Origin: a virus
IMG/VR virus record: IMGVR_UViG_3300036826_000542
Span: 1-35,907 of that record
Reading direction: 5' to 3' (one strand)
DNA length: 35,907 nt
Under the pieces are notes generated by a model. That model saw nothing but the letters and a program-made list of their open reading frames with translations, had not been told where the DNA came from and ran no database searches. Positions 9,119-35,907 of this stretch are shown piece after piece. The position numbers and the translations under genes are program-made. How positions within the stretch are numbered: the stretch's first letter is position 1; every line of letters starts with the position of its first letter.

Positions 9119-9167
9119 GACACAACCGGTGCCGGCTGAGAGCGACGGTACGGCCACCGGTTGTGTC
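9119..9167. repeat. 13-bp perfect inverted repeat between genes
   Basis: GACACAACCGGTG (9119-9131) and CACCGGTTGTGTC (9155-9167) are exact inverted copies around a 23-base loop, in the 91-bp gap before the gene at 9197. There is no T-run on either side, so it is not a standard intrinsic terminator. A dimeric-protein operator or an RNA processing hairpin are the alternatives. Confidence 0.7.
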
Positions 9168-9196
9168 GGCCCTTACACTCGCATCTGAGCAGGCCA

Positions 9197-9733
9197 ATGA
9201 GTCTCGCGAATGGCGCCAGGTTCCTTGACTGGGTCTCGCGACGCTTCGATGATGACGCCGAGCCCGCTCGTTGTCTGCGACACCCAGATGAATCTGCGCC
9301 GGCGTTGCTCGAGCTCCTCGATGGCGCGGCCCCCCTGCTCCTGGTCGGACACGCACTGTCCACGTCGGAGGGCGGTGCCGACGGACTGACGCCAACGGCG
9401 TTGGTCGACTTGACGAATCGACCGGACCTGCTCGATCTGGTACGCGTCGCGCGTCTGGAGTCGGCAGGTCGAAGTGCGCATGAGTACACCTGGCACGCGG
9501 TGCGCCGCGGGTTCGCCAACTTCGCAGTCGTGCAACTCAGGATCCATTGTCCTGCTCGAGCCGAGCTGTCGATCGCTTTTCCGACCAGAATTCCTCAGAT
9601 CCGCCAGTTGCTGGAAGCAGCCGCGGCCACTGGCTGGATGACCATCAGTGATGCCACGGGTGAAGTCACGCTCCTGATGGCCGACGTTGGGGTTGGGCTC
9701 GCCGAATGTCTGGGCGCGGAGGAGGCCGACTGA
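9197..9733 (+). CDS. Conserved-looking protein of unknown function
   Basis: 178 residues from ATG 9197. The frame is open 36 bases further up, but that part lies within the inverted repeat. The protein is globular and mixed alpha/beta (APALLELLDGAAPLLLVGHA, EYTWHAVRRGFANFAVVQLR). It overlaps the next, very large gene by TGATG, which implies coupled translation and perhaps a chaperone or accessory role for that protein. No family recognised. Confidence 0.65.
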   Translation: MSLANGARFLDWVSRRFDDDAEPARCLRHPDESAPALLELLDGAAPLLLVGHALSTSEGGADGLTPTALVDLTNRPDLLDLVRVARLESAGRSAHEYTWHAVRRGFANFAVVQLRIHCPARAELSIAFPTRIPQIRQLLEAAAATGWMTISDATGEVTLLMADVGVGLAECLGAEEAD

Positions 9734-12700: not shown

Positions 12701-14712
12701 AGCTCGAGGCGCTGGTTCAAGCCATTGAAGGCGGCCGCGCCGAATGGGGGCGAGCTGGACAGGCGTGGCGCGCCGCTACGCGCCTGGTCGATCTTCCGCC
12801 GTCTGAGGCGATCAGCGAGATCTACAAAGCCCTCGGCGGCCGTGACAAGGCGCTCGCCGCGGTCCAGGAGTTCAACCAACTCATCGCCGATGGTGCGAAC
12901 CCGGCGCAAATGGCCAACTTCTGGGCGCGTGTCAAGAGTGCTCCGGTTGGAGCAGAGGACTGGCTCAAGGAGCTTCGCTATAACAGCATGCTCTCCGGTC
13001 CACGCACGCTCGAGGTCAACACCCTTGGCAACCTGTTGGAGAACGTGTGGCGTCTTGGGCGAGATGTCCCAGCCTCGGTCCTTCGTGGGCGGCCTGAGGA
13101 GATCGCCCCGGAGTTGAGCGGGATGTTTGCCGGCTTCAACAAGGGCGCACGCGCCTTCATGGAGACGCTGACCCAGGGCATCACCAGCGAGCGCGCCGCG
13201 GCGGGTGAATTGCCGACCTCGCTTTCGGCCCGACTGACTAATCCTGTCGGCAAGGCCATTGCGACTGCCCTCGAGCCGCCAGGTCGACTCATTGGTGGCT
13301 TCGACGCCTGGGCTCAGGCCATGGCGCGCGGCATGGCGCTCGGACGTCGCGCCGCAGTCATGGCGAGCAACGAGGGCCTGCAGGGCGACGCATGGCACGC
13401 GCGCGTTGCTGAATTGCTCGACAACCCCAGCGACAGCATGCTCAAGGAAGCCAGGGATATTGCGCAGCGCATGGTGTTCCAGAACGACATGGGCGCACTT
13501 GGCAATGCCCTGGGGCAGGTGCAGCGCGTCCCATACATCGGGCACATCCTGCTGCCATTTCTCAGGACGGTCTACAACATCACCGCCCGGGGTATCGATC
13601 GGAGTCCCATTGGCCTGCTGGGCACGGGATGGGATGTAGCGCGCGGCGCTTACGGCCCGCGCACATGGGAGAATGTCCGCAGGCAACTCGGTGAATCCAT
13701 CGGGCCAGGTGGTGGCAAGATGCCACTTGGCGAACGGCTGGGTGACAACATCCTCGGCAGCGCCATCTTCGGAGGCGTGTTCATGCCGCAAGCGTTGTCC
13801 GGCAACATCTCCGCGTCGGGACCTGACGACCGCGAGAAACGCGACATGCTGCGCGCGCAGGGCTGGCAGCCGTACAGCCTCCGTGTGGGCGGCAATTGGG
13901 TTAGCTACGCCAACTGGGGGCCGCTGGCGATCCCTCTCGCGATGGCAGGTTCGTTGGCCGAGGCCGGCCAGTACCGAAAGCAAGAGCAGTTCGATGTGCC
14001 TTCGGTGGTTATGGACGCGATCGGACGGACGGGCAAGCTCGCTACGGAGCAGTCCTACCTTCAGAGCATCGGTGCTATCTACCGCGCGATCGACGACCCG
14101 GAGCGGTACGGCGGCCAGGCCCTCGGGCAGACCGTCACATCGCTGATTCCATACGGCTCAGCCGTCAATACGATTGGACAGGCGCTCGATCCGTACCAGC
14201 GCCAGGTCAGCCGCATCCAGGATGTTGGGCCTACGCAGTTCCTGGGCGAAAGCATCGAGTCACGCTTACCAGGCCTGCGCGGCAATCTGCCCATCGCTCA
14301 GGATCAACTCGGGCGACCGGTGCCCAATCCGCAGACTGGACCGGGCGCACTCGATCCACTGCGCGTCACGCCTATCCAGTCCAATGCCGTGCTGCAGGAA
14401 CTCTTGCGGAATGGGGCCGACGTCGGCGAGCCCGCCCCGTCGGTACGTGGCATCGACCTGACGCCCGATGAGCAACGGACGTTCAACCAGATTGCGGGAC
14501 GCACGATCGAGCGTACGGTGACCGAACTGATGGCATCGCCTGGCTATCAGCAAGCAGACACGTCAACCCGCCAGAAAGCCTTGCAGAATGCCGTTGAGCA
14601 GTCGCGCGCGCTGGCCGGCGCGCAGGTCTTGGCGGGACTCAGTACCGAGGAGATTCGCCGTCGTCAGGAGATCGCGCGGACGAAGCGTGTCCCGGTTCCG
14701 ATTGGAGGTTGA
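9733..14712 (+). CDS. Giant virion/ejection-like protein with glucosaminidase and cysteine peptidase domains
   Basis: 1659 residues; ATG 9733 overlaps the upstream stop. Order: a Pro-rich repetitive N-terminus (1-130); a FlgJ-type glucosaminidase (about 218-356) with a likely catalytic Glu at 255 in MASESNYGK; a helical spacer; a papain/C39-like domain (about 405-545) with Cys 414 in AYAACGPAAAV and His 494 in STPGHYFTADGY; then about 1000 residues of Ala/Gly-rich helical sequence. Motifs such as LSGPRTLEVNTLGNL and LLPFLRTVYNITARG resemble internal virion or large polyvalent phage proteins. It probably cuts peptidoglycan (both glycan and peptide) during DNA entry. A conjugation-type muramidase is less likely, because no transfer genes are present. 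Confidence 0.8.
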   Translation: MPTILLEDLQQANEDELRQHLNDLLNPPSPPPEPSPPAPDPDLMAHLGGGPAAASSASSVPQELADHVDQLLSHPSPPPNVSPQPAPSPPTPSDTLTNPIGTGNRPQQAPPPQELADHVDQLLAPPSQTTPAPDTSTPPSVVQDLGDRAGGLASRGLHVLGQGVINLGLGAQQAAQQATSGVINLVSPTPSPAATPRSDASVSQPTTAAGTQAPSGAIDASSPAAFARSVAPYAQYAAQQLGIDPTWVTAMMASESNYGKAPGNELFGVKALPGQKSQTLLTHEGEYGGQQMNQSFAAYDTPLDSVNAWVDLIKNHYQGAVGAQTLGDFVHGLKQGGYFTAAEPEYLGILQGISDRVGGDVQGALQSAGQTASAVASKVGQTASNVGSAVSSTLGNVSQFGDKQLSSAEAYAACGPAAAVRFAQLYGRNPTLREATDLAAQLGWTLDGGMAGLSSESKLFDAMGIPHRTVGADWRALGREAQSGNPVVISTPGHYFTADGYDPSSGAFHVGSSGTDLRGGSEWMTPDQMQNRMGQLQGGLVADHPGVPGSSPVSAPKPMLEVASDAARSAGQAAQRGLQVLDDAVQSTAQGVQNVGQGTLQVLGDTSRQPTPAEAQPLPSEALTNPLGTRYMAANMPASPDGAVGPQNAISGQPGGNPLDQVKSKFNDALDSLGSLIQSPRVQSLPQQAADLAGQAPLPVVGGRLSDLEAPLRGTQAALDVVEQQRQQQINQPDPTSQFMRNVDAARRGDWGAFAQGTFDLTQRVAGGGPMGGPEADASQAVSAGLTAAGIDPNAARVLGQVANVIGPVALERAIPEVVGAAERAVPAAGRAITSPEAQALLRSRAVAGGRPFLFGPSEESPPTEAGAQGLEGSTAEVERLRLDKFPDWLQSTVREAAENVNFGAEQRRGVISNPQAEQMADDLQRSVDDWIARSKPGTIFNTEETRALRNVITAQAQKVQDLAQEVTQAAGRGEVTDRLTAQAAAESNKLEALVQAIEGGRAEWGRAGQAWRAATRLVDLPPSEAISEIYKALGGRDKALAAVQEFNQLIADGANPAQMANFWARVKSAPVGAEDWLKELRYNSMLSGPRTLEVNTLGNLLENVWRLGRDVPASVLRGRPEEIAPELSGMFAGFNKGARAFMETLTQGITSERAAAGELPTSLSARLTNPVGKAIATALEPPGRLIGGFDAWAQAMARGMALGRRAAVMASNEGLQGDAWHARVAELLDNPSDSMLKEARDIAQRMVFQNDMGALGNALGQVQRVPYIGHILLPFLRTVYNITARGIDRSPIGLLGTGWDVARGAYGPRTWENVRRQLGESIGPGGGKMPLGERLGDNILGSAIFGGVFMPQALSGNISASGPDDREKRDMLRAQGWQPYSLRVGGNWVSYANWGPLAIPLAMAGSLAEAGQYRKQEQFDVPSVVMDAIGRTGKLATEQSYLQSIGAIYRAIDDPERYGGQALGQTVTSLIPYGSAVNTIGQALDPYQRQVSRIQDVGPTQFLGESIESRLPGLRGNLPIAQDQLGRPVPNPQTGPGALDPLRVTPIQSNAVLQELLRNGADVGEPAPSVRGIDLTPDEQRTFNQIAGRTIERTVTELMASPGYQQADTSTRQKALQNAVEQSRALAGAQVLAGLSTEEIRRRQEIARTKRVPVPIGG
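9923..10097 (+). repeat. Duplicated coding segment in the giant protein N-terminus
   Basis: A 22-base stretch (9923-9944) recurs exactly at 10076-10097. Each copy encodes LADHVDQL, followed by a Pro/Ser-rich linker. A third, diverged copy (LRQHLNDLL) lies further up, near 9781. These look like repeated short helices on a flexible linker, possibly docking motifs. Confidence 0.7.
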
Positions 14713-14893
14713 ACTCTTGCTCCACCAATCGCTTCCTCAAACGCCGCGCGCCCATGGGCGACAGCACCCACCAGAAAAGCGCGAGGCCGATGGCGAACAG
14801 GAGTGTTGGTCCCAGGATCACCAACTGCATCCAGTGCAGCGGCTCCATCCCGAACGGATGGTCAAAACCCTTCACAATGAGCCCCAAGTACAC
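14639..14893 (-). CDS. Possible small membrane protein on the opposite strand
   Basis: 84 residues from GTG 14893. The segment LVILGPTLLFAIGLALFWWV is a convincing TM helix followed by positive charges (GARRLRKRL). The same frame is open upstream to about 14989 and encodes a second hydrophobic stretch (LWTLVAFLSACVYLGLIV), but without an ATG, GTG or TTG. It overlaps the last 74 bases of the giant gene and is alone on this strand. It may be a real small membrane protein with an unusual start, or a chance frame. Confidence 0.35.
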   Translation of the reverse strand: MYLGLIVKGFDHPFGMEPLHWMQLVILGPTLLFAIGLALFWWVLSPMGARRLRKRLVEQEFNLQSEPGHASSARSPDDGESPRY

Positions 14894-15017
14894 ACAGGCG
14901 CTGAGGAACGCAACCAGCGTCCAGAGAGTGTCCCTGATCGTCGACCTGGGGGCGGGGCCAACTTTGCTGATGGCGCGCGAGTATATTCAAGCAAACGCGT
15001 GACGGGGTGAAAATGGC
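14713..15017. promoter_or_regulatory. Gap before the 640-aa gene, with probable promoter
   Basis: This 305-bp gap holds most of the possible minus-strand membrane frame. A TATATT -10-like hexamer lies at 14982-14987, in a locally AT-rich patch. No good -35 is seen at 16-18 bp. GGGGTGA at 15004-15010 is a plausible ribosome site for the ATG at 15018. This suggests the 640-residue gene is transcribed on its own. Confidence 0.5.
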
Positions 15018-16940
15018 ATGACGCGGGACGAACTGAACACCATCATCGCCCAGCACAAGGGTCTGGTGAGCGCTCCTGTCGCCGTCAATCCGACCATCGA
15101 CAATCCCGATCCCGCTGGCAAGATCAACACTCCCAAGATTTCCAACCCGAACCCGGACTACAGATACGTCTTCAACGACGGTACCGACTTCACCTTGCGT
15201 GCGTCGCCGACGTCCGATCCCAACAGTACGACGGGGTTCGACACCAACGACCTGCAGGTGGTCGATCCTGGAACGGCATTGAAACCGCCGACGACCAGGC
15301 CGCCCACGTCGCTCGGCCGAATGGTGCGCATCGACGCGCAGGGCAGTGTCATTCCGGACAGCGACACGACCACGCCGGCGGTCAAGCTCGTCGACCCGAA
15401 CAACGCTTCGACGACGATCGACCTGCCGAACCCGAAAGCGGGCGCCCAGCCCAACGGCAAGTTCACGAACATCGTCGACCCGCGCGACCCCGCCGGCAAA
15501 CGCATCATCGGCTTCGTCGACACCGGCGACAACTCCTACCACGCGTTGCCGGCTGAGCCGGACCCAGCCACCGGGCGGCAGATCGTCAATACCGGCACCA
15601 AGATCCTGGCGGTCGACAAGGACAACAAGGTCAGCGAACTGGCGACCATCGACAAACAGTCGCCGTTTCAGGCCGTCACCATCGATGGCAAGGCGTATCG
15701 CTTCGATCCGAACGAGTCCGACATCAGCAAATCGCTGCAGCCGATGGGCGACCAGACGCCGGGACCTATCCGCGACGCCCAGAACAACCCGATGGTCTGG
15801 GACAAGGATCAGGGCAAGTACACCTACGCTCCGGGTGTCACGCCTGCGTCGACGGTCTCGACCAACACCACCTCGCCGTTCCTGATCTGGTACGACGCTC
15901 AGGGCAACGAGGTCAAACGGGTCACCAACCCGAACTACCAGCCGACGCCACCCACACAGCTACAGGCCGACGTCACCGCGCCGAATATTCCCCTGCTAAA
16001 GCCCGACGGCACGGTCCAATGGGTCCCGAATCAGAACCGCGTGCCTGCCGGTCAGGCCATGCAGGACCTGCTGGGTCAGGTGGGTGTCAGGGTCAACGGT
16101 AACCAGATGAGCATGGCCGATGCCAAAGACATGCTCACTGGCGCCGTCAACACCATGAATGCCCAGACGTCGCGTATCAACGCCCAGACGTCGCAGCAGC
16201 AGGCTGAAACCGCGCAGCAGCAGAACGTCACGACCGCGGCGGGCGACATCCTGGCCAATACGCGTGGCAACGCGCAGACCGGCGCAGGACTGCTGCAGCA
16301 GCGTGTCCAGGCGGCGACCGGCGCGCTCAACAGCATCCTGGGCCAGGCCGCCGGCGCCAGGAACCTGATGTCGGCGCCGGCCGGACTCGGCGAGCAGCTG
16401 GTCGGTGGGCTCCAGGGCTGGACCGCCGACCTGATGGGCGGCCAGCGCACGCTGGATTCAGCGGCGCGGCTGGTGCAGGCGGCGGATCCCAGGAGCGACA
16501 TGGCGGACCCGACGACGCATACGGCGATCGGGGTGCTGTCGCAGATGCTCGACAAGTACCAGCAGGTGACGGGTACGCCGCACCCCGCGGTGGCGGCGAC
16601 GCAGGCTGCGGGGCAGAGCGCGGCGAACGGTGGCATGACGGCGCCGGCAACCGTCAATCCACAGCAGCTGCTCAACCAGCAGGCTGCTGGGGCGCAGACC
16701 GCGGCGGCGACCCAGCAGTTTGGCGGTGGTCCGTTTGGAGCGATCGGCACCAATCCGATGCTGGCGGCGCAGCAGGCCGCCAATCGTCAGGCAGCATCCA
16801 ATCAGACCGCTGCCGCGACGCAGCAGTTTGGTGGCGGGTTTGGCGCGATTGGCAGTAACCCGATGCAGCAAGCGTTCGTGGCGCCGGTGACGGCCCCCGC
16901 GCCTGTGGCGCCGCCCAAGATGACGGTGACCTTCGGCTAG
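15018..16940 (+). CDS. Repetitive, probably structural protein (640 aa)
   Basis: The N-terminal half (1-310) is beta-rich and Pro/Asp/Asn-rich, with loosely repeated units such as KAYRFDPNESD and GKRIIGFVDTGDN. Residues about 360-520 are helical and Gln/Ala-rich (NAQTSRINAQTSQQQAETAQ), typical of ejection or tail-needle-like coiled coils. The C-terminus carries two copies of QTAAATQQFGGG followed by FGAIGxNPM. No enzymatic motif is seen. It follows the giant muralytic protein, so a virion internal or tail component is the best guess. The function is not established. Confidence 0.7.
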   Translation: MTRDELNTIIAQHKGLVSAPVAVNPTIDNPDPAGKINTPKISNPNPDYRYVFNDGTDFTLRASPTSDPNSTTGFDTNDLQVVDPGTALKPPTTRPPTSLGRMVRIDAQGSVIPDSDTTTPAVKLVDPNNASTTIDLPNPKAGAQPNGKFTNIVDPRDPAGKRIIGFVDTGDNSYHALPAEPDPATGRQIVNTGTKILAVDKDNKVSELATIDKQSPFQAVTIDGKAYRFDPNESDISKSLQPMGDQTPGPIRDAQNNPMVWDKDQGKYTYAPGVTPASTVSTNTTSPFLIWYDAQGNEVKRVTNPNYQPTPPTQLQADVTAPNIPLLKPDGTVQWVPNQNRVPAGQAMQDLLGQVGVRVNGNQMSMADAKDMLTGAVNTMNAQTSRINAQTSQQQAETAQQQNVTTAAGDILANTRGNAQTGAGLLQQRVQAATGALNSILGQAAGARNLMSAPAGLGEQLVGGLQGWTADLMGGQRTLDSAARLVQAADPRSDMADPTTHTAIGVLSQMLDKYQQVTGTPHPAVAATQAAGQSAANGGMTAPATVNPQQLLNQQAAGAQTAAATQQFGGGPFGAIGTNPMLAAQQAANRQAASNQTAAATQQFGGGFGAIGSNPMQQAFVAPVTAPAPVAPPKMTVTFG

Positions 16941-16978
16941 ACCCAGCGAAACGTTCGTCGCCGTCTGGGCCTCCGATT

Positions 16979-17007
16979 GGCACGCTCAGGGGCACGTTCG
17001 CGGCACG
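16979..17007 (+). repeat. Phased repeat cluster A (GGCACG x3)
   Basis: GGCACG occurs at 16979, 16991 and 17002, spacings of 12 and 11 bp. The same core appears inverted in cluster E at the other side of the region. Confidence 0.65.
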
Positions 17008-17056
17008 GTGGGTGTGCTGAGCTGGCGGCATGACGCACGTGCAAACAGCGCCAGCT

Positions 17057-17095
17057 AACGCCTGGGCAACGCCTGGCAAACGCCCTGGATACGGC
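17057..17095 (+). repeat. Phased repeat cluster B (AACGCC x3 plus TACGGC)
   Basis: AACGCC starts at 17057, 17068 and 17079, and a related TACGGC starts at 17090. All spacings are exactly 11 bp, so the copies face the same side of the helix. Confidence 0.75.
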
Positions 17096-17120
17096 AGTGT
17101 TTGGGGCCCAGGCGGACGAA

Positions 17121-17137
17121 AACGCTCTGACAACGCT
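17121..17137 (+). repeat. Phased repeat cluster C (AACGCT x2)
   Basis: AACGCT at 17121 and 17132 are 11 bp apart, matching the core and period of cluster B. Confidence 0.55.
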
Positions 17138-17226
17138 CCGCGGTGATGCTCGGCAAACGGCCGTGCACGCGAGCGGAGGGCCGAGACCTGGGGCTGAGCG
17201 AACTGTAATGCCGGCCTGGGCGTTCC

Positions 17227-17266
17227 GGACGCCTTCGGCACGCCCAGGGTACGGCTGGGGTACGCC
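17227..17266 (+). repeat. Phased repeat cluster D (ACGCC/ACGGC x4)
   Basis: ACG cores start at 17229, 17240, 17251 and 17262, each in a GG(N)ACGSC context. The spacing is exactly 11 bp throughout. Confidence 0.7.
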
Positions 17267-17368
17267 TCGTTCTCAGGATGGGCGCATGGCCAGCACACGC
17301 CGACCCCGGACAACCGCCGGGCTATGCGTCGACAGGGGGATTGTCTCTCTCGACTTTCAGACTGGTGG

Positions 17369-17408
17369 CGTGCCTCAACCGTGCCAGCAGCGTGCCGCGA
17401 GCGTGCCA
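17369..17408 (-). repeat. Phased repeat cluster E (inverted, GTGCC x4)
   Basis: GTGCC starts at 17370, 17381, 17392 and 17403, all exactly 11 bp apart. On the minus strand the units read GGCACGCTCGC, GGCACGCTGCT, GGCACGGTTGA and GGCACGCCACC. This is the inverted counterpart of cluster A. Confidence 0.78.
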
Positions 17409-17623
17409 GGGGGCGGAAAAACAGGCGGACTTCGGAGGTCCGCCCCAGAAGTCCGCCCTTCGGACAATCCAGATACATTCGCGGCAATCTCGCGAGGTGG
17501 TCACCGACACGCTCTGGATACATTCTGGACACATCAGAGCGCCGTCCCCACTGCTCATTCATTCAATCCATCTCTACCCCTGCTGCCGGACTGCCGGTGT
17601 GCTCGTCCGAGCTGGATTGCCCG

Positions 17624-18556
17624 ATGAGCGCCGCTGGGGTCCAGGAGCTGCGCGGGCACTATGTGCGTCGACTGCCGACGCCGGCCGAGATCGCACGTCG
17701 AGTACCGATCGTCATCACTGAGCGTGATTGTCAGGTTCTGCTCGCGGTGCACTTGCACGGTCTGCTGACGACCGACCTGATCGAGCTGGCGTTCTTTCCG
17801 CCGCGGAATGGAGCACGCTCGTGGTCCTCGTCCAAGGCGTACGAACGTCTGCGCGATCTGTGGCTGTGGGGCTACCTCGAGCGCATCGAGTTGCCCGTCG
17901 CGCGGGTCCTGGGTGGTCGCCGGCCGTTTCTGTACGCGATCGGTCACCAGGCCGTGCCGCTGGTCGAGGCGCGCAGTGGAAGCTGGAGCGCGCCCGTCCA
18001 ACCGCGGCGACTCGATCGGCTCGACCACGTGTTCATTGACCACGATCTCAAAGCCGCGGCGCTGTGGGCGAACATGAAGGTCGAGCTGATCCGTCGTGGT
18101 GGCTGTCGCTGGCTGTGGCTTGGTGAACGCGACCTCAGGGCCAGGCGAATGCGCGTGCGCTCGCCCCAGGGCGACTACTGGCTGCCGTTCCTGCCGGACG
18201 CCTATTTCGAGGTGCTTTATCCAAATGGCGACGTGCAATGTGTCCTGGTCGAGATCGACATGGGGACGCTGACGCTGCGGCGCTTCGGACGCAAGATGCT
18301 GGCGTTCGAGGCAGCACGGGACGAAGATGTGTTCCGCCGTCACTTCAAGCGCGACGACTTCGAGGTCCTGGTGCTGACGCATTCGAACCGCCGCCTGGCG
18401 TCGCTCAGAAACGTCGCTGCCCGGGCAGTGCCTGGCGGGCGCCACGCCGACTACTACCTGGCGACCTTCGACGCGCTCGAGCCGGGTTCGTTTGCTGGCG
18501 CGTGCTGGGAGGACCTGGACGGCGAGACGGTGCAGGGCGTCCTGTACGCCCCGTAG
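17624..18556 (+). CDS. Replication-relaxation family protein
   Basis: 310 residues from ATG 17624. The frame is open upstream, but that part is Arg-rich and lies in the repeat region. An N-terminal winged helix (ITERDCQVLLAVHLHGLLTT, then SKAYERLRDLWLWGYLERI) precedes a central acidic core (RLDHVFIDHDLKAAALW, PDAYFEVLY, LVEIDMGT) of the restriction-endonuclease-like type. This matches the replication-relaxation/MobC-like family found on plasmids and phages, where it is linked to replication or DNA relaxation. The phased repeats immediately upstream are natural candidate targets. Confidence 0.75.
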   Translation: MSAAGVQELRGHYVRRLPTPAEIARRVPIVITERDCQVLLAVHLHGLLTTDLIELAFFPPRNGARSWSSSKAYERLRDLWLWGYLERIELPVARVLGGRRPFLYAIGHQAVPLVEARSGSWSAPVQPRRLDRLDHVFIDHDLKAAALWANMKVELIRRGGCRWLWLGERDLRARRMRVRSPQGDYWLPFLPDAYFEVLYPNGDVQCVLVEIDMGTLTLRRFGRKMLAFEAARDEDVFRRHFKRDDFEVLVLTHSNRRLASLRNVAARAVPGGRHADYYLATFDALEPGSFAGACWEDLDGETVQGVLYAP

Positions 18557-18562
18557 GACCTG

Positions 18563-19006
18563 TCAGCGCCAGAATTGCCACCGTGGGCGCCGTCTAGTCG
18601 CCGCGGCGGCTGCTGAAAGCTCCGCTTCGAGGCGGCCGATCCGCTCGGCCTGTGTCACGACCAGGGCGCGTCTGACTGCCAGTTCCTGCAGCATCGGCGC
18701 GAGGGCGACCTCCAAACGCCTTCGTGCAACCACCCGTGGTATTCCGAGCGCACGGAGTTGTTGCAAAAAGACCCGCAAGCGCTGGCCGGCCTCCCGGTTA
18801 CAACTCGGGTGGGCGATACGTAGATTGGTGTCGCGATTGTCCCCGCCGAGCGCGACGGCGATGATGTGATCGACGTGTGCCTCATCGACTGAGACTGGCT
18901 GTTGGCACAACCCACACCGCCCGAAGTCGCGCGCATGCAAGCGGACCCGGCGCGCACGCGAGAAACTGTGGCGCACCAAGACAACTCCTAGCGCCAGAAC
19001 GCCCAC
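18563..19006 (-). CDS. HNH endonuclease with aromatic C-terminal tail
   Basis: 147 residues from GTG 19006, overlapping the upstream gene by 19 bp. The HNH zinc fold is clear: CGLCQQ, AHVDHIIAVALGG, NLRIAHPSCN. A long helical tail follows (RRRLEVALAPMLQELAVRRA) and ends in RPRWQFWR. The upstream HTH protein ends in KSWWAFWR, a very similar tail. It may nick or cut DNA in concert with that HTH protein. The start could also be an internal GTG. Confidence 0.78.
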   Translation of the reverse strand: MGVLALGVVLVRHSFSRARRVRLHARDFGRCGLCQQPVSVDEAHVDHIIAVALGGDNRDTNLRIAHPSCNREAGQRLRVFLQQLRALGIPRVVARRRLEVALAPMLQELAVRRALVVTQAERIGRLEAELSAAAAATRRRPRWQFWR

Positions 19007-21040: not shown

Positions 21041-21535
21041 TCAGTCAGTGGCGAGGTTCTCCTGAATTGGGAAGTTGAGCCGCGCAAATTCGCCCCAGTG
21101 CTTGCGCGCGGCGGCATCGTAGGCGCGAGCTGCTAGTTCGATCGAGACGTAGTAGCCAAGGGACAAATTCCTGCCGTCAACCGTGATGCGGGCTTGCCAT
21201 GGGTGACCTGTGCACTTCGAGTGAAAGAGGACACCTTTGTAGCCATGCTTGGATTTCGGCCGCTGGTTCTGGTTCTGCTGTGATCGCGTGGCCAGACGCA
21301 GGTTGGCGCGACGGTTGTCGAAGATATCGCCGTTGACATGGTCGACTTCCATACCGTCCGGCGGGGGCAGAATTGCGCGGTGCATGAACACCGCTCGTCG
21401 AGCTGCGCGATATCCGACCATCCGATAGGGATAGGGAGCGTCCGCGCGCGTGGACCATTGCCATTGACTCAAGAGGTCGAAGTCCTCGTCATCGACCAGG
21501 GCAACACCGCCACCACGTAAGCCGATCTCTTTCAC
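21041..21535 (-). CDS. HNH endonuclease with AP2 domain (homing type)
   Basis: 164 residues from GTG 21535, overlapping the upstream stop. An N-terminal HNH part (AVFMHRAILPPPDGMEVDHV, NGDIFDNRRANLRLATRSQQ) is followed by an AP2-like DNA-binding domain (GYKGVLFHSK, WQARITVDGRNLSLGYY, ELAARAYDAAARKHWG). This is the usual layout of free-standing phage homing endonucleases. It lies inside a run of coupled genes, consistent with homing into a cotranscribed block without harm. Confidence 0.88.
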   Translation of the reverse strand: MKEIGLRGGGVALVDDEDFDLLSQWQWSTRADAPYPYRMVGYRAARRAVFMHRAILPPPDGMEVDHVNGDIFDNRRANLRLATRSQQNQNQRPKSKHGYKGVLFHSKCTGHPWQARITVDGRNLSLGYYVSIELAARAYDAAARKHWGEFARLNFPIQENLATD

Positions 21536-23222: not shown

Positions 23223-23420
23223 ATGATGTCGGCCATGGCGGAGCGCGTCCTCAAGGTCTCGGAGGCAGCAGACCAACTGCGTGTTCCAGAGGCGACAGTG
23301 CGCCGCTGGATCCGAGAGGGGAAGCTGCAGGCGACAATGCTCGGAGGAACGAAGACGGGTTACCGAATACCCGAGTCAGAGATTGCCCGGCTGCTCGCGC
23401 CGCGGGACACATCTAGGTGA
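23223..23420 (+). CDS. Excisionase-like HTH protein
   Basis: 65 residues. ATG 23223, 23226 or 23235 are all possible and none has a strong ribosome site. The whole protein is one MerR/excisionase-type HTH with wing: LKVSEAADQLRVPEATVRRW, REGKLQATMLGGTKTGYRIP. It is divergent from the SWIM operon, so it is the natural candidate for the regulator that binds the repeats between them. It may also act as an excisionase for the recombinase at 24770. Confidence 0.78.
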   Translation: MMSAMAERVLKVSEAADQLRVPEATVRRWIREGKLQATMLGGTKTGYRIPESEIARLLAPRDTSR

Positions 23421-23445
23421 TTCAGATCTCGACGTGGCTCAGCCG

Positions 23446-23832
23446 ATGACGCCTTTGCGCAGCCCCAGCCCGACAGCACAGGCAAGTGGCGCGGTAGCCC
23501 GTGCTATTCGCGAGGGCAAACTTGTGCGACCTTCTGTCTGCGAGCAGTGCGGTAAGTCCGCGCGCCTGGACGCGGCTCACTATGACTACGCACGGCCACT
23601 GGACGTGCGCTGGCTGTGTCGCGGTTGCCACGTGGCCTGGGACCGTGCTGAGCCTAAAGGCGGGGTTTCACCAGGGGCCGTGACGGTACGTCTGCCGACC
23701 ACGCTGCTCGAGCGCCTTCGGCGAGTCGCAGACGAGCAAGACCGCTCGCTCAATGCCCAGGTCGTGCGGGCCATGCGTGAATGGCTGGAGGACTACCAAT
23801 CACGTTCGTCAGCTGCGGCCGAACCGAAATAG
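23446..23832 (+). CDS. HNH-like zinc finger fused to a ribbon-helix-helix domain
   Basis: 128 residues from ATG 23446. Residues about 30-70 carry CEQCGKSARLDAAHYDY and WLCRGCHVAWD, a treble-clef zinc fold of HNH type. The usual catalytic DH is replaced by AH, so it may bind rather than cut. Residues about 80-120 are Arc-like (AVTVRLPTTLLERLRRVADE, then SLNAQVVRAMREWLEDY). The fusion suggests a DNA-binding regulator or partition protein with two binding surfaces. Confidence 0.7.
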   Translation: MTPLRSPSPTAQASGAVARAIREGKLVRPSVCEQCGKSARLDAAHYDYARPLDVRWLCRGCHVAWDRAEPKGGVSPGAVTVRLPTTLLERLRRVADEQDRSLNAQVVRAMREWLEDYQSRSSAAAEPK

Positions 23833-23856
23833 CTGCGCCGTCCAGGAGCTCGAGCC

Positions 23857-24087
23857 ATGACCACCCTGCCAGCTTTTACCCGTGACCCTGACGTCCACAG
23901 CGGAGCAGCGGTGTTCCCAGGCACGCGCGTGCCGATCTACATCCTGTTCGACTACCTGATGAGCGACGACGAGGATGGACTGGCCCAGTTCCTCGAAGAC
24001 TACGACCACATCTCGCGCGAGGCTGTGAACGCTGTCCTCGAGTGCGCCAAACATGTGCTCACCGATCCGGACGACCTGGAGGATTGA
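23857..24087 (+). CDS. DUF433 antitoxin
   Basis: 76 residues from ATG 23857 with an AGGAG ribosome site. It matches the DUF433/VapB-like pattern: a short lead with DPDVHSGAAVFPGTRVPIY, then an HTH-like part (YLMSDDEDGLAQFLEDYDHI, SREAVNAVLECAKHVL). It is paired with the DUF5615 gene downstream and should neutralise it and repress the operon. Confidence 0.85.
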   Translation: MTTLPAFTRDPDVHSGAAVFPGTRVPIYILFDYLMSDDEDGLAQFLEDYDHISREAVNAVLECAKHVLTDPDDLED

Positions 24088-24437
24088 GCTCCGTAGTACG
24101 GAGCGTGCTCGTCGATGAGGACCTTCCGCCACGCCTGTCGTCCGCGCTGGCAGCCGAGCTCGGCGAGGACGTTCGCTGCTCATCAGTCCGACGTGAGGGC
24201 TGGAGTGGACTCAAAAACGGAGCACTCCTGGCACGCATGACCGAGCACGGTTTCACCATCCTGGTCACCGCGGACCGCAACATCGTGCGTCAGCAGCCGC
24301 TGGCGAGACTCAACCTGGCCACCGTGGTGGTCACCCGACCATTGCAGCGTGCTGCGGTGCTCGCCCGTGTGGCCGCCATCGCTCAGGCGATCCGCGAGGT
24401 GCAGGCTGGTGCCAGCATCGAAGTTCACGCGGCATGA
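24084..24437 (+). CDS. DUF5615 PIN-like toxin
   Basis: 117 residues from TTG 24084, which overlaps the antitoxin stop (TTGA); GTG 24105 is an alternative. The PIN/Mut7-C-like fold shows in VLVDEDLPPRLSSALAAEL (first acidic residues) and HGFTILVTADRNIVRQQPLA. Such proteins are predicted ribonucleases kept silent by DUF433 partners. It probably stabilises the element in its host. Confidence 0.8.
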   Translation: MSSVVRSVLVDEDLPPRLSSALAAELGEDVRCSSVRREGWSGLKNGALLARMTEHGFTILVTADRNIVRQQPLARLNLATVVVTRPLQRAAVLARVAAIAQAIREVQAGASIEVHAA

Positions 24438-24503
24438 GCACCCCAACCGCTCGCGTGACATCCGGTTCTTCACGATATCCGCGCGCGAAATGGCGCCAGG
24501 TGA

Positions 24504-24531
24504 ACGCGTGATAAGTGTCCTTATCCTGCGT
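24504..24531. other. dif-like recombination site
   Basis: Left arm ACGCGTGATAA, six-base spacer GTGTCC, right arm TTATCCTGCGT. The arms are inverted copies matching at 9 of 11 positions, and the total is 28 bp. The inner ATAA-N6-TTAT layout is that of bacterial dif sites used by XerC/XerD. It lies about 240 bp upstream of the tyrosine recombinase gene and between genes, so it is a good candidate for attP or for dimer resolution. Confidence 0.65.
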
Positions 24532-24554
24532 TTCCGCGCGACGAAGCGCTGGGT

Positions 24555-24761
24555 ATGAGCACACGCGTCGTTGCTGCAGGAGTGAGCGCGGTGTCGTTGG
24601 TTGCCATGGCCATCCTGCTGGGTGTGGTCGCCCCGTCGGACCCCATTTTGGGCCAGGCGACGGTTGCCACTCCGTTCCGCAACCTCGCCACGCTTGCGCT
24701 GTGGGGTGCCCTGATCGCGGCGATTGCCACCGTGGTGTTCTATTTCGTCGATCGAGGGTAG
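24555..24761 (+). CDS. Small membrane protein (68 aa)
   Basis: From ATG 24555. There are two TM helices: VSAVSLVAMAILLGVVAP (about 10-27) and LALWGALIAAIATVVFYFV (about 47-65), joined by a short polar loop. No family is recognised. It sits between the dif-like site and the recombinase gene. Confidence 0.6.
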   Translation: MSTRVVAAGVSAVSLVAMAILLGVVAPSDPILGQATVATPFRNLATLALWGALIAAIATVVFYFVDRG

Positions 24762-24769
24762 AGGCGCTG

Positions 24770-25648
24770 GTGACATTCGCCGTAGCGCACACCGTGCCGA
24801 CGTCGCTCGCGCCAACGTTTCGCCAGACCGCGACGGATGACCAACTGGTCGCGCTCTGGCTGCACGGCCGCTCGCGCCATACCCAGCGCGCCTACCGCGC
24901 CGACAGCGAACGATTCCTGGTCTTCGTCGCCAAGCCGCTGGCGATGGTCACGCTCGGCGACCTGCAGGCCTTCGCCGACTCACTGGCTGGCAAGCCCAGC
25001 TCTAGGGCGCGCACGCTGGCCGCGGTCAAGTCGCTGCTCGCGTTCGGCCAGCGGACGGGCTACCTGGCGCTGAACGTCGGCGCCGCGCTCAAGCTGCCAG
25101 CTGGCAAGAACACGCTCGCCGAGCGAATCCTGACCGAGACCGACGTCCATCGGATGCTTGCGCTCGAGCCCGATCGTCGCAACCAGCTGCTGCTGCGATT
25201 GCTGTACATCGCCGGCGTGCGCGTCTCGGAGATCGCGGCGCTGACCTGGCGCGACCTGCAGCCGCGGTCCGATGGCGGCCAGGTCACCGTGTTCGGCAAG
25301 GGCTCGAAGACGCGCACGGTGCTGCTGCCGTCGGCGATGTGGCGCGAGCTGCTGCGCTGGCGCCAACACGCGGCGCTCGACGCCCCCATCTTCGCTTCCA
25401 GCCGCGGCAGTGGCCACCTGCACCCGACGGCGATCGAACGCATTGTCGCCAAAGCCGCGGTGCGCGCGGGCCTCGAGCTGGCGGTCTCGCCCCACTGGCT
25501 GCGCCACTCACATGCCACCCACGCACTCGAGCGTGGCGCACCGATCCACCTGGTCGCCGCCACTCTTGGGCACGCTTCGGTCGCGACCACGGGCAAGTAC
25601 CTGCACGCTCGTCCGACGGACAGCTCGTCGAAGTACCTGGCGATATGA
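24770..25648 (+). CDS. Tyrosine recombinase (XerC/D-like)
   Basis: 292 residues from GTG 24770. An N-terminal SAM-like core-binding domain (HTQRAYRADSERFLVFVAKP) precedes the catalytic domain. The catalytic residues are visible: Arg 151 (AGVRVSEI), Lys in GKGSKTRTV, His 242 and Arg 245 (HWLRHSHATH), His 268 (LGHASVATT) and Tyr 277 (TGKYLHA). Its length and short N-terminal region match the Xer type more than large phage integrases. With the dif-like site close by, it probably integrates or resolves the circle. Confidence 0.9.
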   Translation: MTFAVAHTVPTSLAPTFRQTATDDQLVALWLHGRSRHTQRAYRADSERFLVFVAKPLAMVTLGDLQAFADSLAGKPSSRARTLAAVKSLLAFGQRTGYLALNVGAALKLPAGKNTLAERILTETDVHRMLALEPDRRNQLLLRLLYIAGVRVSEIAALTWRDLQPRSDGGQVTVFGKGSKTRTVLLPSAMWRELLRWRQHAALDAPIFASSRGSGHLHPTAIERIVAKAAVRAGLELAVSPHWLRHSHATHALERGAPIHLVAATLGHASVATTGKYLHARPTDSSSKYLAI

Positions 25649-25851
25649 CGACCGACGAATTCGAGCAGATCGCGGGCAAGCTCGGTGAGCTCGAGGACTA
25701 CCTGCGCGACCAGTGCCGGCTGGCGCGTGCCGTCGGTCGCACCGCCGACGCGGCCGCCTTTGACACCGCGCTGACCATGGCCATATCGGCCCATGCGCTT
25801 GCGCAGCTCCTGCGTGAACCTGAGGATGAGCAGACCAATGTCCGACGCTAA
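25645..25851 (+). CDS. Small acidic helical protein, unknown (68 aa)
   Basis: ATG 25645 overlaps the recombinase stop (ATGA). It is helical throughout (EFEQIAGKLGELEDYLRDQC, AAAFDTALTMAISAHALAQL). Coupling to the recombinase suggests an accessory factor, but no family is recognised. Confidence 0.6.
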   Translation: MTTDEFEQIAGKLGELEDYLRDQCRLARAVGRTADAAAFDTALTMAISAHALAQLLREPEDEQTNVRR

Positions 25852-26157
25852 GTGGCTTCAGTGTCTCGGAAGAAGTACAACCTCGTGATGGCGAGCGACG
25901 AGGCTGGTCGACCCGTGGGTGCGCAGTGGACCGAGTTACCGCCGCACTTCACCCGACCCCACCGCACGCCCATCCGCAGCGTTTCGCGCGCCGAGTTCGA
26001 ACACGAGCTCAGCCAACGCGTCGCCCGGTACGAGCAGCTCTACGAGACGTCATCGGCAAAGATGCTGACTGCGATCAAAGACGGGAGTCGTGTTGAGACC
26101 GCCGACATCGCGCAATGGCTGTTCTGGTACCAGCTGCTCCAGCGCCTGCGCCAATGA
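25852..26157 (+). CDS. Predicted antitoxin partner of DUF6516
   Basis: 101 residues from GTG 25852, directly after the TAA of the previous gene. The C-terminal part (ARYEQLYETSSAKMLTAIKD, then DIAQWLFWYQLLQRLRQ) matches the short proteins that usually precede DUF6516 genes: a helix ending in a Trp/Tyr-rich W..WY.LL.RL. The N-terminal half is unremarkable. The ATGA overlap with the next gene fits a toxin-antitoxin operon with the antitoxin first. Confidence 0.65.
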   Translation: MASVSRKKYNLVMASDEAGRPVGAQWTELPPHFTRPHRTPIRSVSRAEFEHELSQRVARYEQLYETSSAKMLTAIKDGSRVETADIAQWLFWYQLLQRLRQ

Positions 26158-26618
26158 GCGATCCCCACGATTGGAACTCGTGGGACAACTACCAGACCAT
26201 CCACGAGAAAGTGCTCGATGAGCACACGTTCATTTTCGAGAACTTGCTCGAGTGGACGTACCTGGAAGACCCGCTCCTATTGGTGTTGAGCGGACACCTG
26301 ATCTGCGACCACAACGTGATCGTTGCGGTATCCAAAGTTCTCGAGACACGTCTCGGACCACGCGACCGATTGGAAGTTCGTGGTTGGAAATATTCATACA
26401 ACGCCTTCTTCGCCGGTCGGCACAACATCCTGCGGTATGACAATACGCATGCCGACGAACCGCCCGATCAGGAATTTCACCGCCACGCGTTCGATCTGAA
26501 GAGCGGAACCGAACTTCCAACAACACGGCTGCATAGACGTGACATGCCTGTGCTCAGCTCGTTTCTGGACGAAGTTGCCGCCCTGGTCGAAGCCGATGAG
26601 CCGGGCCAATGGTCGTAA
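26154..26618 (+). CDS. DUF6516 family, predicted toxin
   Basis: 154 residues from ATG 26154. The family's pattern is recognisable: a beta strand, then KYSYNAFFAGRHNILRYDNT with the Tyr-Ser-Tyr and RYDN signature, then HRHAF and LHRRDMPVLSSFLDEVAALV. DUF6516 proteins are found paired with small helical partners as presumed toxins; the target is not known to me. It overlaps the next tiny frame by 10 bp. Confidence 0.68.
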   Translation: MSDPHDWNSWDNYQTIHEKVLDEHTFIFENLLEWTYLEDPLLLVLSGHLICDHNVIVAVSKVLETRLGPRDRLEVRGWKYSYNAFFAGRHNILRYDNTHADEPPDQEFHRHAFDLKSGTELPTTRLHRRDMPVLSSFLDEVAALVEADEPGQWS

Positions 26619-27651: not shown

Positions 27652-28936
27652 ACGCGACGAGCTGCTGCTGCCATACCCACACGCGGGACAACAGCACGTG
27701 CGCCGCACGGCGCGCCGCTTCAACTGGCTGAGCGCGGGTCGTCGTTGGCGGAAAACATCGCTGGTGATGGCGATCGCCGCGGAGGCAGCGCTCAACGGCG
27801 AGCAGGTGTTCTGGGGCGCGCCGGTCTACGACCAGGTGCGCATCGGTTGGAACGAGCTGCGCCATGGCGCCGCGCGGGTCGCCGACTTCAACCAGTCCAG
27901 CATGACCGCGCGCTTCCCCTCGGGTGGCAGCGTGACCTTCCGCAGCCTGGATAACCCCGATTCGGCGCGCGGTCACACCGCCAGCGGCATCGTGCTCGAC
28001 GAGACAGCCGACATCAAACCAGACGCCTGGCTTGAGGTCCTGCGCCCGATGCTGCTCGACACCGGCGGCTGGCTGTGGGCGGTTGGCTCACCGCGCGGTA
28101 TGAACTGGTTCTGGCAGGAGTGGATGGCGGCGCGCGATCGGACCGATGATTCAATGTGCTGGCAGGCGCCGACACTCGGCGTCGCCGTGCGCGACGGACG
28201 CCTGGTGCGACAGCCGCATCCGATCGAGAACCCACACATTGCCTTCGAGGAGATTCGTGAAACCTGGTCGCGCTTGCCCGAGCGCACCTTCGCGCAAGAG
28301 ATCCTGGCCGAATTCATCGAGACCGGCGGCGGCGTCTTCCGCGGCGTAAGGGCCGTGGCTCGTCTCGAACCACAGCCACCCGAGCGTGGGCATAGTTACG
28401 TGCTCGGTGTCGACCTGGGTATGGTCAATGACTTCACGGCGATTTCCGTGTTCGACTCGAGCACTCAGGAACAGGTGGCGCTGGATCGCTTCAATCGTGT
28501 CGATTGGGAGTTTCAGCTCGAGCGCATCGGCAGGTGGGCGGACCTGTACAAACCGACGGTCATTGCGATCGAAGCCAATTCCATGGGTGGACCGCTTGCC
28601 GAACGACTCGAGCGCGGGTACGTGCGGCTCGACGGAAGCGCTCGTACGGCACTGCCGATTCTGCGCTGGATGCCGACCAATGCCAGCAAGCGCGAAGTGA
28701 TTGATGGGTTGGCGTTGGCCATTGAAACGGGCAGCATCACGTTGTTGGACGATCCGATTCAAACCGCGGAGCTGCTGGCCTACGACGTCGAAAAGCTGCC
28801 GTCTGGGATGTTGAGATTCTCGGCTCCGGGCGGCCTGCACGATGACTGTGTCGTGAGCTTGGCCCTGGCCGTCGCGTTTGGACAGCCAGAACGATTCCAG
28901 GGGTCGCGCGGACACTACAGCTTCGCATCGCGCTAG
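27632..28936 (+). CDS. terL: Terminase large subunit
   Basis: 434 residues from GTG 27632. The ATPase part shows a Walker A-like loop SAGRRWRKTS (34-43), Walker B GIVLDETAD (Asp 123, Glu 124) and the coupling motif AVGSPRG. The nuclease part has the RNase H-like acidic motifs VLGVDLGMVNDF, VIAIEANSMGG and GGLHDDCVVS. The P-loop has Arg where Gly is usual before Lys. All catalytic elements are otherwise present, so it should be active in packaging. It ends on CTAG, shared with the convergent ParB-like gene. Confidence 0.92.
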   Translation: MPQAVPERDELLLPYPHAGQQHVRRTARRFNWLSAGRRWRKTSLVMAIAAEAALNGEQVFWGAPVYDQVRIGWNELRHGAARVADFNQSSMTARFPSGGSVTFRSLDNPDSARGHTASGIVLDETADIKPDAWLEVLRPMLLDTGGWLWAVGSPRGMNWFWQEWMAARDRTDDSMCWQAPTLGVAVRDGRLVRQPHPIENPHIAFEEIRETWSRLPERTFAQEILAEFIETGGGVFRGVRAVARLEPQPPERGHSYVLGVDLGMVNDFTAISVFDSSTQEQVALDRFNRVDWEFQLERIGRWADLYKPTVIAIEANSMGGPLAERLERGYVRLDGSARTALPILRWMPTNASKREVIDGLALAIETGSITLLDDPIQTAELLAYDVEKLPSGMLRFSAPGGLHDDCVVSLALAVAFGQPERFQGSRGHYSFASR

Positions 28937-29877
28937 CCGGCGTGCGCTTCGACCACACGCGTTGCCACCGGTGTCCACCAGGTGCTGCCACATCGCGAAC
29001 AGACCTGTTTCGCCGCGCGAGGCATCGCGCTGATTTCGGTCCCACACATGCCACACGACCAGCGGGTCGGGCGCGTCGCAGTCGCTTCCTTCAAACTCGC
29101 CTGCCAGCGTTCGGCGAGTTTGATGACCTCACGGACCAGGCCTAGCTCGGACGCGTTCGAGATAGTGCGGACCTGGCGGAGCAGTTCGAGCGCGGTGCGT
29201 AGCCGGCCTTCGGTCTCGGCGCGCTGAGCCTGCTCCGTGCGTTTGAACATGCCGTGCCTGGCCTGCCCGCGACGGTGCTGGTACACAGCGCTCCGTATGC
29301 GCCGATGGCGCTCCGGGGCCGGCAGGCCGGGCAGCACGGGCAGCAACTCGCTTATCACTGGCTGCGGCAGATACGCCATTTCGCAGGCAACAGTCAGGGT
29401 GACCTGCTCGGCATCCAGCGCCGTCAGGAGCTCGGGTGAATGACCGACGCGCAGCCACTTCTTGACGGTGAGCTCGCCGAGCCCCGTGCGGCGTGTGATC
29501 TCCAGTCCACTGAGGCCAGCGTCCACGAGCTGGCGGAGCGCCCGTGCGCGTTCAGGACCGCTCAATTGCCGGCGCTGCACGTTCTCGACGAGCGAGACGA
29601 TCAGGCTGCTGGCGGCGTCCGCCTCGAGGCGCACGGTCGCGGGAATGGTGTCCAGACCGGCCAGTCGTGCCGCAGCCACGCGACGACTGCCGAAGAGCAG
29701 GACATAGCGCCCACCTGCCGTGGGCCGCACGCCGATGGGTTCGAGGACGCCGAGTGCACGGATCGACTCGACCAACTCGCCGAGGTCGCCGAGGTCGATG
29801 CGGCTGTTGCGTTCAGCCACTGGCTCGTCGAGCAACTCCAGAGCCACGTGCACGAGCGCGTCGCTGAGCACGTCCAT
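28933..29877 (-). CDS. ParB/RepB-like partition protein with C-terminal zinc ribbon
   Basis: 314 residues from ATG 29877. The ParB N-terminal domain is clear: LGDLGELVESIRALGVLEPI, GRYVLLFGSRRVAAARLAGL, LIVSLVENVQRRQLSGPERA. A KorB-like HTH follows (GLSGLEITRRTGLGELTVKK). The end carries two zinc pairs, CGMCGTE and CSRCGST. It may bind a centromere-like site, but no partner ParA gene is seen in the window. The frame stays open upstream into the TIR of the neighbouring insertion, so the original 5' end may have been altered. Confidence 0.82.
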   Translation of the reverse strand: MDVLSDALVHVALELLDEPVAERNSRIDLGDLGELVESIRALGVLEPIGVRPTAGGRYVLLFGSRRVAAARLAGLDTIPATVRLEADAASSLIVSLVENVQRRQLSGPERARALRQLVDAGLSGLEITRRTGLGELTVKKWLRVGHSPELLTALDAEQVTLTVACEMAYLPQPVISELLPVLPGLPAPERHRRIRSAVYQHRRGQARHGMFKRTEQAQRAETEGRLRTALELLRQVRTISNASELGLVREVIKLAERWQASLKEATATRPTRWSCGMCGTEISAMPRAAKQVCSRCGSTWWTPVATRVVEAHAG

Positions 29878-29930
29878 AACAGTAACGCCGGCGCGGCGAT
29901 TTGTGATGTCCGGGTGACGGAGACCCGCCG

Positions 29931-29951
29931 TGTAGCGACGTGTCACACTTT
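29931..29951 (+). repeat. Terminal inverted repeat, left
   Basis: Begins TGTAGCGACGTGTCACACTT. It matches the minus-strand right end at 19 of 21 positions, with both differences at positions 9 and 10. It lies 11 bp beyond the gene's stop codon. Confidence 0.72.
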
Positions 29952-29961
29952 TCCGGGGCAG

Positions 29962-31137
29962 CTAGGCGGCAACCTCCGACGGCTGACGTCGCGCCTGGCA
30001 GTGTGCGCACTCGCGGGTCAGGACCTGGCGCACCGTCGCAGGCACGATGGCGCTCCAGTCCTCGTGTTCGGTTGCCAGAGTGGTCAGGATCTTCGGCGCC
30101 CGGTAGCCGGCCAGGTGGAGCTCGATGATGCGACGGTTGCGCCTGGCCAGCAGCGGGTGACGGGCAACTTTGCGGCCTCTGTTGGCGCACGAGAGCGAAC
30201 AGTAGCGGCGAATGCGCCCGCTGTGGAGTTGCGCGCAGCGAGCTTGCCAGGGATAGATCCTGAAGGAGGTGCGGCACGCGCGGCAGCGAGCGACTCGCGG
30301 CGCGATGGCGCGCTGGTAACAGATGGGCGAGCAGAACCAGCGGCCGATCGCCTTGCTGGCAGGCGCCTCACCGTGCTTGCCACATTGAGCGCAGACCGTT
30401 TCTACCCGTGGCCCGCGGCTGCCGATGCCGCGGCACTTACGCGAGCAGTACAGGACCGGGCCGCGTTCGAGGCGGGACAGGAAGACCTCGGGCGTGGCAC
30501 CACAGATGACGCAGGTGATCTGGCGGCGGCGGTCATGGCGATGGGCGCACGACCGTGAGCAAAAGCGACGCTCGCGAGCGCGAGAGGGGAGGACCTCGAA
30601 CGGCTCTTCGCAGCGCTCGCAGGTGAGGGTAGTTCGGAGTGGCTCGCCTGGAGATGGAGCAACGAGTCCGGCGCGTTCGGCCCAGTGGCGCCGCCAAGCG
30701 GCAGCCCAGCAGGCTTGCGTACAGAAGCGCGTTTTCTGACTACTCGGATACGTCTCCCACGGAGCGCCGCACTCTTCACAGACGTGCTGGACGCGCTTGC
30801 GTTGGGCCGCGGCGCTACAGGCTCGAGTACAGAAGCGACCAGGGCGTGAAGCCCGCTGGTACGCGGTGCCGCAGTGCTCGCAGTGACGGACGGCGACATG
30901 GCGGCGGCGGTTGGCGCAGGTCGTTGAGCAGAAACGGGACAGGCCGTGCTTCTGCCAGGTGGGTTCGAAGGAGGTGCCGCAGGCCTCGCAGTGGGCTGTG
31001 GCCGGCCGGCGCGTGATCGATTGCCTCCAGCAGGCGGGTGTGCAAAAGCGACCTTTGCCGGCGCGGATGGCATCGACACGAGCATGGAAGTCCGTGCCGC
31101 ACTGCTCGCAAATAGCCGGCACGCGAAGCGGTGCCAC
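29962..31137 (-). CDS. Protein of eight tandem FCS/TRASH-like zinc modules plus C-terminal helix
   Basis: 391 residues from GTG 31137; an in-frame stop lies 12 bp upstream. Eight repeats of CxxC...[FY]CxxxC follow each other (CEQCGTDF/FCTPAC, CEACGTSF/FCSTTC, CEHCGTAY/FCTRAC, CEECGAPW/FCTQAC, CERCEEPF/FCSRSC, CVICGATP/YCSRKC, CAQCGKHG/FCSPIC, CRACRTSF/YCSLSC). A basic helical end follows (LLARRNRRIIELHLAGYRAP), with a ninth half module CAHC. Such fingers bind nucleic acid or protein. The gene is the only content of the inverted-repeat unit. Its function is unknown; a sequence-specific DNA binder acting on the TIRs is one idea. Confidence 0.78.
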   Translation of the reverse strand: MAPLRVPAICEQCGTDFHARVDAIRAGKGRFCTPACWRQSITRRPATAHCEACGTSFEPTWQKHGLSRFCSTTCANRRRHVAVRHCEHCGTAYQRASRPGRFCTRACSAAAQRKRVQHVCEECGAPWETYPSSQKTRFCTQACWAAAWRRHWAERAGLVAPSPGEPLRTTLTCERCEEPFEVLPSRARERRFCSRSCAHRHDRRRQITCVICGATPEVFLSRLERGPVLYCSRKCRGIGSRGPRVETVCAQCGKHGEAPASKAIGRWFCSPICYQRAIAPRVARCRACRTSFRIYPWQARCAQLHSGRIRRYCSLSCANRGRKVARHPLLARRNRRIIELHLAGYRAPKILTTLATEHEDWSAIVPATVRQVLTRECAHCQARRQPSEVAA

Positions 31138-31153
31138 GCTCCGATGCTATCAG

Positions 31154-31174
31154 AAAGTGTGACAACTCGCTACA
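31154..31174 (-). repeat. Terminal inverted repeat, right
   Basis: On the minus strand begins TGTAGCGAGTTGTCACACTT. It lies 16 bp upstream of the GTG start of the zinc-module gene, so the end may also carry that gene's promoter. Confidence 0.72.
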
Positions 31175-31189
31175 CTGCCCTCTTTTCTA

Positions 31190-31279: not shown

Positions 31280-31327
31280 AAGACACCCTCAGCCACCAAG
31301 GTCGCCAAACCGAGCCGAGGGTGTCTT
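31280..31327 (-). terminator. Leader stem-loop, terminator-shaped on the minus strand
   Basis: AAGACACCCTC (31280-31290) and GAGGGTGTCTT (31317-31327) are perfect inverted copies around 26 bases. The minus strand continues TTCTGTT after the stem. In sense it is a hairpin eleven bases before the ATG at 31339, with GGAG in between. It could stop leftward transcription into the zinc-module gene or act as a leader structure. Confidence 0.6.
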
Positions 31328-35409: not shown

Positions 35410-35907
35410 GTCAACACGACGAACCACGGGACAGCCAGGACGCTCCGCCGCACGACGTCAGCGCCGAGCAGGGCGTCCTGGGATCCGTGCTGAAGAATCC
35501 GCGCTCGATCCACCAGGTCATCGACCAGCTTGTGCCAGAGGCGTTCTACGACACGCCGCACCGCCTCACCTATGCGGCGATGGTCTCGCTGGTTCGGCAG
35601 GACATCGCGATCGACTACCACACGCTTCTGGCGGAGCTCGAGCGCCAGAACGCCCTGCAACGCGTCGGCGGCGCCGACTTCGTCATTGGCATCAACCTCG
35701 CGACACCCACGGCCGCCTTTATCGAGTACTACGCGCGGATCGTCGCCGACCACCACCTCCGCCGGCTGTTGATCCAGCAGAGCCAGAGGAGCGCTGAGCT
35801 CGCATGGCGCGCGAGCCTGTCCGTCGACGAGTTGTTGGCGAGCGCCCAGACGGGAGTTCTCGGTCTCTCCGACCAGGCCGGCGCGCGTGTCAGGAGCATC
35901 ACTGCCG
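35406..35907 (+). CDS. dnaB: Replicative DNA helicase, DnaB type (N-terminal part; continues at base 1)
   Basis: ATG 35406 overlaps the initiator stop (ATGA). The DnaB N-terminal domain is recognisable: DVSAEQGVLGSVLKNPRSIH, then VPEAFYDTPHRLTYAAMVSL and LQRVGGADFVIGINLATPTA, with the linker leading into the ATPase part. This N-terminal domain forms the hexamer collar and binds primase or loader. The window end cuts the gene; the rest is at 1-1121. No separate primase or helicase loader is recognised in the window. Confidence 0.93.
   Translation, partial: MSQHDEPRDSQDAPPHDVSAEQGVLGSVLKNPRSIHQVIDQLVPEAFYDTPHRLTYAAMVSLVRQDIAIDYHTLLAELERQNALQRVGGADFVIGINLATPTAAFIEYYARIVADHHLRRLLIQQSQRSAELAWRASLSVDELLASAQTGVLGLSDQAGARVRSITA
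35737..35907. repeat. Terminal redundancy, right copy
   Basis: Matches 1-171 except for G at 35780 where base 44 is C. See the left copy. Confidence 0.93.

Follow-up and report, generated by a model that had tools for sequence, protein, structure and literature searches.

Mobile insertion cassettes, in which a single gene lies between inverted ends and no transposase is encoded, have already been described (for example, PMC3913671). Intron-encoded I-TevI of phage T4 offers a second point of comparison: it represses itself by binding, with a zinc finger and a C-terminal helix-turn-helix (HTH), to an operator that lies upstream of its own gene (PMC2988022). The locus analyzed here lies in a window of 35,907 nucleotides (the whole of IMG/VR record IMGVR_UViG_3300036826_000542) and resembles both systems in part. 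Like the mobile insertion cassettes, it has a single cargo gene held tightly between inverted repeats without a transposase, and the statement of the initial annotation that no described element has this layout was therefore too strong. Unlike them, it shows no target duplication, and a parent insertion sequence with these ends was not found. With I-TevI the encoded protein shares a zinc element and a C-terminal HTH, here a predicted one, in the DNA-binding part. However, I-TevI has only one zinc finger, carries a GIY-YIG nuclease and is located in an intron, so that the likeness is one of analogy only. The features of the locus are as follows.

29931-29951, plus strand: left arm, TGTAGCGACGTGTCACACTTT, 21 bp, with likeness running outward to 29927
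31154-31174, minus strand: right arm, TGTAGCGAGTTGTCACACTTT as read on the minus strand, with likeness running outward to 31178
29962-31137, minus strand: zinc gene, 391 aa, eight tandem FCS-type zinc modules (open reading frame and motif reading, Pfam, PHROG)
aa 10-36, 50-74, 86-107, 120-143, 173-197, 209-235, 249-273 and 285-317 of the zinc protein: the eight modules
29965-30150, minus strand: C-terminal tail (aa 330-391) of the zinc protein, with helices predicted at low confidence, occupying the position of the nuclease in relatives
31144-31149, minus strand: candidate extended -10 element (TGaTAGCAT; TGATAGCAT), read from the sequence, 6 nt ahead of the GTG start
28933-29877, minus strand: ParB/Spo0J-type gene, next to the zinc gene; its ATG is at 29877, and the left arm occupies the stretch 54-74 nt upstream

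The record is labelled as a viral contig. Its ends (1-171 and 35737-35907) share a direct repeat of 171 bp (170/171 identical) and a dnaB gene reads in frame across the join of the ends, so that the record forms a closed circle of about 35.7 kb, which the single mismatch may have hidden from the end-repeat classification. Besides ParB, the genes encode a tyrosine integrase, TerL-like and Replic_Relax proteins, a HerA/FtsK-like ATPase, methyltransferases and two small HNH proteins. The region 5907-18556 contains the HerA/FtsK-like ATPase, a glucosaminidase/C39 protein of 1668 aa and the Replic_Relax protein beside the TerL-like gene, and no capsid or portal gene was recognised. What is labelled a "virus" may in fact be conjugative or plasmid-like, or a phage-plasmid. 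Relatives of TerL were found at 78 loci (26-44% identity), none of which shares the neighbourhood around the zinc gene, and DNA similarity to plasmids was confined to a stretch of 49 bp. Two large methyltransferase fusions are located at 1152-5938; DUF5131 is part of one, and the other has a ParB-like N-terminal region.

The zinc protein contains the pattern CxxC...[FY]CxxxC eight times. It matches Pfam zf-FCS_1 with an E-value of 2.9e-6, which passes the cut-off, and phrog_1271 (HNH endonuclease) with an E-value of 2e-24, the latter via its zinc part. The tail of about 60 residues matched no Pfam family; its helices are predicted, with low confidence, in an HTH-like order, and by this prediction the tail is probably an HTH. 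Structure models were too uncertain for a structure search (pLDDT 41 for the whole protein and 54 for the tail). A comparison with the nuclease domains of the relatives revealed no nuclease remnant at or beside the zinc gene. Eight FCS-type modules together with a short helical tail make it most likely that the zinc protein is a DNA-binding protein. The GC content of the gene (0.68; 0.77 at third codon positions) equals that of its neighbours, and its composition thus gives no sign of a recent arrival.

To place the zinc array among known proteins we compared it by tblastn, which detected relatives in Streptomyces and Kitasatospora plasmids, mycobacteriophages, and haloarchaeal viruses and plasmids; matches to single phages were weak. 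In most relatives a series of such modules precedes a C-terminal nuclease, which is DUF559/Vsr-like at loci L091-L093 and L098 and of the HNH type at L090, L097, L099 and L100. Identity between the zinc protein and the plasmid proteins is about 30% across about 280 residues. The proteins of Streptomyces sp. NBC_00708 (WUT01669.1), Kitasatospora (WP_331727163.1) and Mycobacterium phage Camster (L098, 2450-3331) have the run of CxxC...[FY]CxxxC modules in common with the window protein. However, the plasmid and mycobacteriophage proteins contain fewer modules (six were recognised in the plasmid ones) and end in a Vsr/DUF559 domain, whereas the window protein contains eight and lacks a nuclease, ending instead in the short helical tail. 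Likewise, the haloarchaeal HNH endonucleases (HRTV-28 gp29, BLv36 ORF4 and pNG400) and PHROG 1271 have similar zinc modules but carry a C-terminal HNH domain, which the window protein lacks. By sequence, the zinc protein belongs to a family that otherwise consists of nucleases and is a variant without a nuclease domain. In the viral contigs no relative turned up for the zinc protein, ParB, the right neighbour or the HerA/FtsK-like gene, and a search run without a positive control found the zinc protein neither in the species-genome collection nor in 396 genomes from the phylum of L086.

These comparisons point to a little-described family in which phage and plasmid nucleases probably target DNA through long arrays of zinc modules; the window protein is a member that keeps the array without the nuclease. 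Module-by-module reading of DNA by such arrays, and recognition by the window protein of the repeats at the ends of its own gene, are directly testable.

The near-perfect 21-bp inverted ends reported by the initial annotation are confirmed. The arms match at 19/21 positions, or at 22/25 when extended outward (29927-29951 and 31154-31178); the only two mismatches within the 21 bp are adjacent and lie near the middle of the arm. With 36.8 bits (composition-scored) they form the top inverted pair of the window at spacings of 200-3000 bp. Allowing up to three mismatches, the arm consensus is present only twice in the whole record, namely at the arms, where dinucleotide shuffles predict 0 occurrences. 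Tight framing of a single gene with eight zinc modules was also correctly described, since the left arm is separated from the end of the zinc gene by 10 nt and the right arm from its start by 16 nt. When the 150-bp flanks of 40 genes were compared, the best repeat was 19/21 for the zinc gene and 12-15/21 for every other gene. The observation of inverted arms is therefore real and confirmed chiefly by position. Two details were absent from the earlier description: the similarity of the arms overshoots the presumed TG/CA end, by 3 of 4 bases outward, and a target duplication is missing. The RNA structure of the right gap is nothing special (z 0.39). Another inverted repeat, AAGACACCCTC...GAGGGTGTCTT, is located at 31280-31327, just upstream of plus-strand genes.

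We slightly favour protein-binding sites over the ends of an insertion cassette as the function of the arms, with a probability of roughly 0.4. Both arms occupy gaps upstream of minus-strand genes, the right one upstream of the zinc gene and the left one upstream of parB, and they are unique in the record. The zinc gene transcript is a candidate for leaderless transcription from the putative extended -10 element, in which case the right arm would span about -17 to -37, that is, the -35/spacer region; a sigma-70 scan listed no promoter. Binding sites are favoured because of these positions, because the similarity passes the TG/CA "end" and a target duplication is absent, because the array is homologous to nuclease fusions while no nuclease is present in or beside the gene, and because the composition of the zinc gene shows no recent arrival.

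If the two inverted sequences of 21-25 bp are binding sites rather than transposon ends, the simplest ligand would be the zinc/HTH protein itself, which would repress its own gene from the arms in the manner of I-TevI. ParB would be an alternative ligand; no canonical parS was found within the window at a match of at least 12/16. The open frame of parB extends as far as a GTG at 29946, within the left arm.

Several results argue against binding sites. Although regulators often have several sites, no further copies of the arm site were found in the record, and additional sites with a degenerate dyad occur there at chance level. The dyad inside each arm is unremarkable (8/17 and 10/17 positions matched, values equalled by about 15% and 4% of all 17-mers, respectively). 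Relative to the two genes the arms are inverted and not direct, and beside the left arm no matching -10 element was found. Furthermore, an insertion would equally give a tight framing bounded by TG...CA.

That last point belongs to a rival reading, raised already by the initial annotation, that is possible but that we would put at clearly below even odds: the unit would be a non-autonomous insertion cassette with one cargo gene and TG...CA terminal inverted repeats, mobilised in trans in the past by a transposase that this element lacks, and now fixed. It would explain why arms matching at 19/21 and ending in TG/CA sit in inverted orientation exactly at both ends of the zinc gene, and why the flanking repeat of this gene stands out from those of all the others in the record. 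Terminal inverted repeats bound the cargo, and the reported absence of a transposase holds throughout the record, where none was found (the few open reading frames outside the scan are all small). The transposon-like layout of tight ends, one gene and no transposase thus stands, but the transposon reading itself gained no positive support. No boundary of the unit showed a target duplication when the ends were shifted by -5 to +4 positions and lengths of 2-14 bp were allowed, and the arm similarity overshoots the cassette end. The record holds no second copy, and the composition of the gene resembles that of its neighbours.

The search for other genes between these ends, proposed earlier, was equally negative. 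The viral contigs contained no match to the ends, either exact or with two wildcard positions added, and a shorter end pattern gave five matches there, all unpaired. In 85,000 species genomes (257 Gb) the wildcard pattern had eight unpaired matches compared to about 30 expected by chance, as calculated from its 17 fixed bases. Half of the eight fall within coding sequences and the other half between listed open reading frames; none is beside a recognisable transposase. These searches used near-exact patterns, which a diverged parent element could escape. In the suggested comparison with IS3, IS481 and IS21, the likeness of the arms to repeats around sampled transposases of these families did not exceed chance level, with at most 10-11 of 19 positions matching (89 loci from 60 genomes of one phylum). 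Homologues flanked by similar ends were not found either: none of eleven distant relatives had flanking repeats above 15/21, and the actinobacterial plasmid and mycobacteriophage genes lack flanking inverted repeats, in contrast to the 19/21 arms of the window gene. Neither the viral contigs nor the species genomes yielded a relative of the element in which an empty site might be seen. These negative results weaken the reading as an old or rare insertion cassette.

It is unlikely that the arms are alike by chance or through some other unrelated cause, without a common function. An equally good pair was present in 1 of 427 windows simulated with a second-order Markov model, and the corresponding Gumbel p of about 0.003 precedes any credit for the placement of both arms in the gaps on either side of one gene; the maximum in an earlier set of 40 first-order simulated windows was 32.1 bits. 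A chance likeness is made unlikely by the location of the arms at exactly both ends of one gene and by their uniqueness among the genes.

The remaining readings draw on other genes of the record:

18563-19006: second HNH gene
21041-21535: HNH-AP2 gene, free-standing, of the homing-endonuclease type
24515-25648: tyrosine integrase

We consider it improbable that the zinc array binds the two ends of its own unit and helps to move or copy it with a nuclease from another gene, for example one of the two HNH genes. The fusion of related arrays to HNH or Vsr/DUF559 nucleases, the presence of these two HNH genes, one of them homing-type, and the precise framing of the zinc gene by the arms are in line with such a unit. 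On the other hand, the genes of the relatives are not framed by inverted repeats, no second copy was seen, and free-standing homing genes spread when cleavage at a distant site is repaired and have no need of terminal repeats (PMC2988022). Just as doubtful is an invertible cassette, in which the arms would be crossover sites of a site-specific recombinase that flips the zinc gene on or off: the inverted sites around one gene, the tyrosine integrase and the adjacent position of the sole two mismatches near the arm middle would fit, but the integrase is 4 kb distant with no similar site beside it, a central mismatch would hinder strand exchange, and a single consensus in one orientation was seen.

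Two toxin-antitoxin-like pairs are located at 23281-26618: an Arc/RHH protein is encoded near a PIN-like protein at 23281-24437, and a small open reading frame is followed by a TumE-like toxin at 26115-26618.
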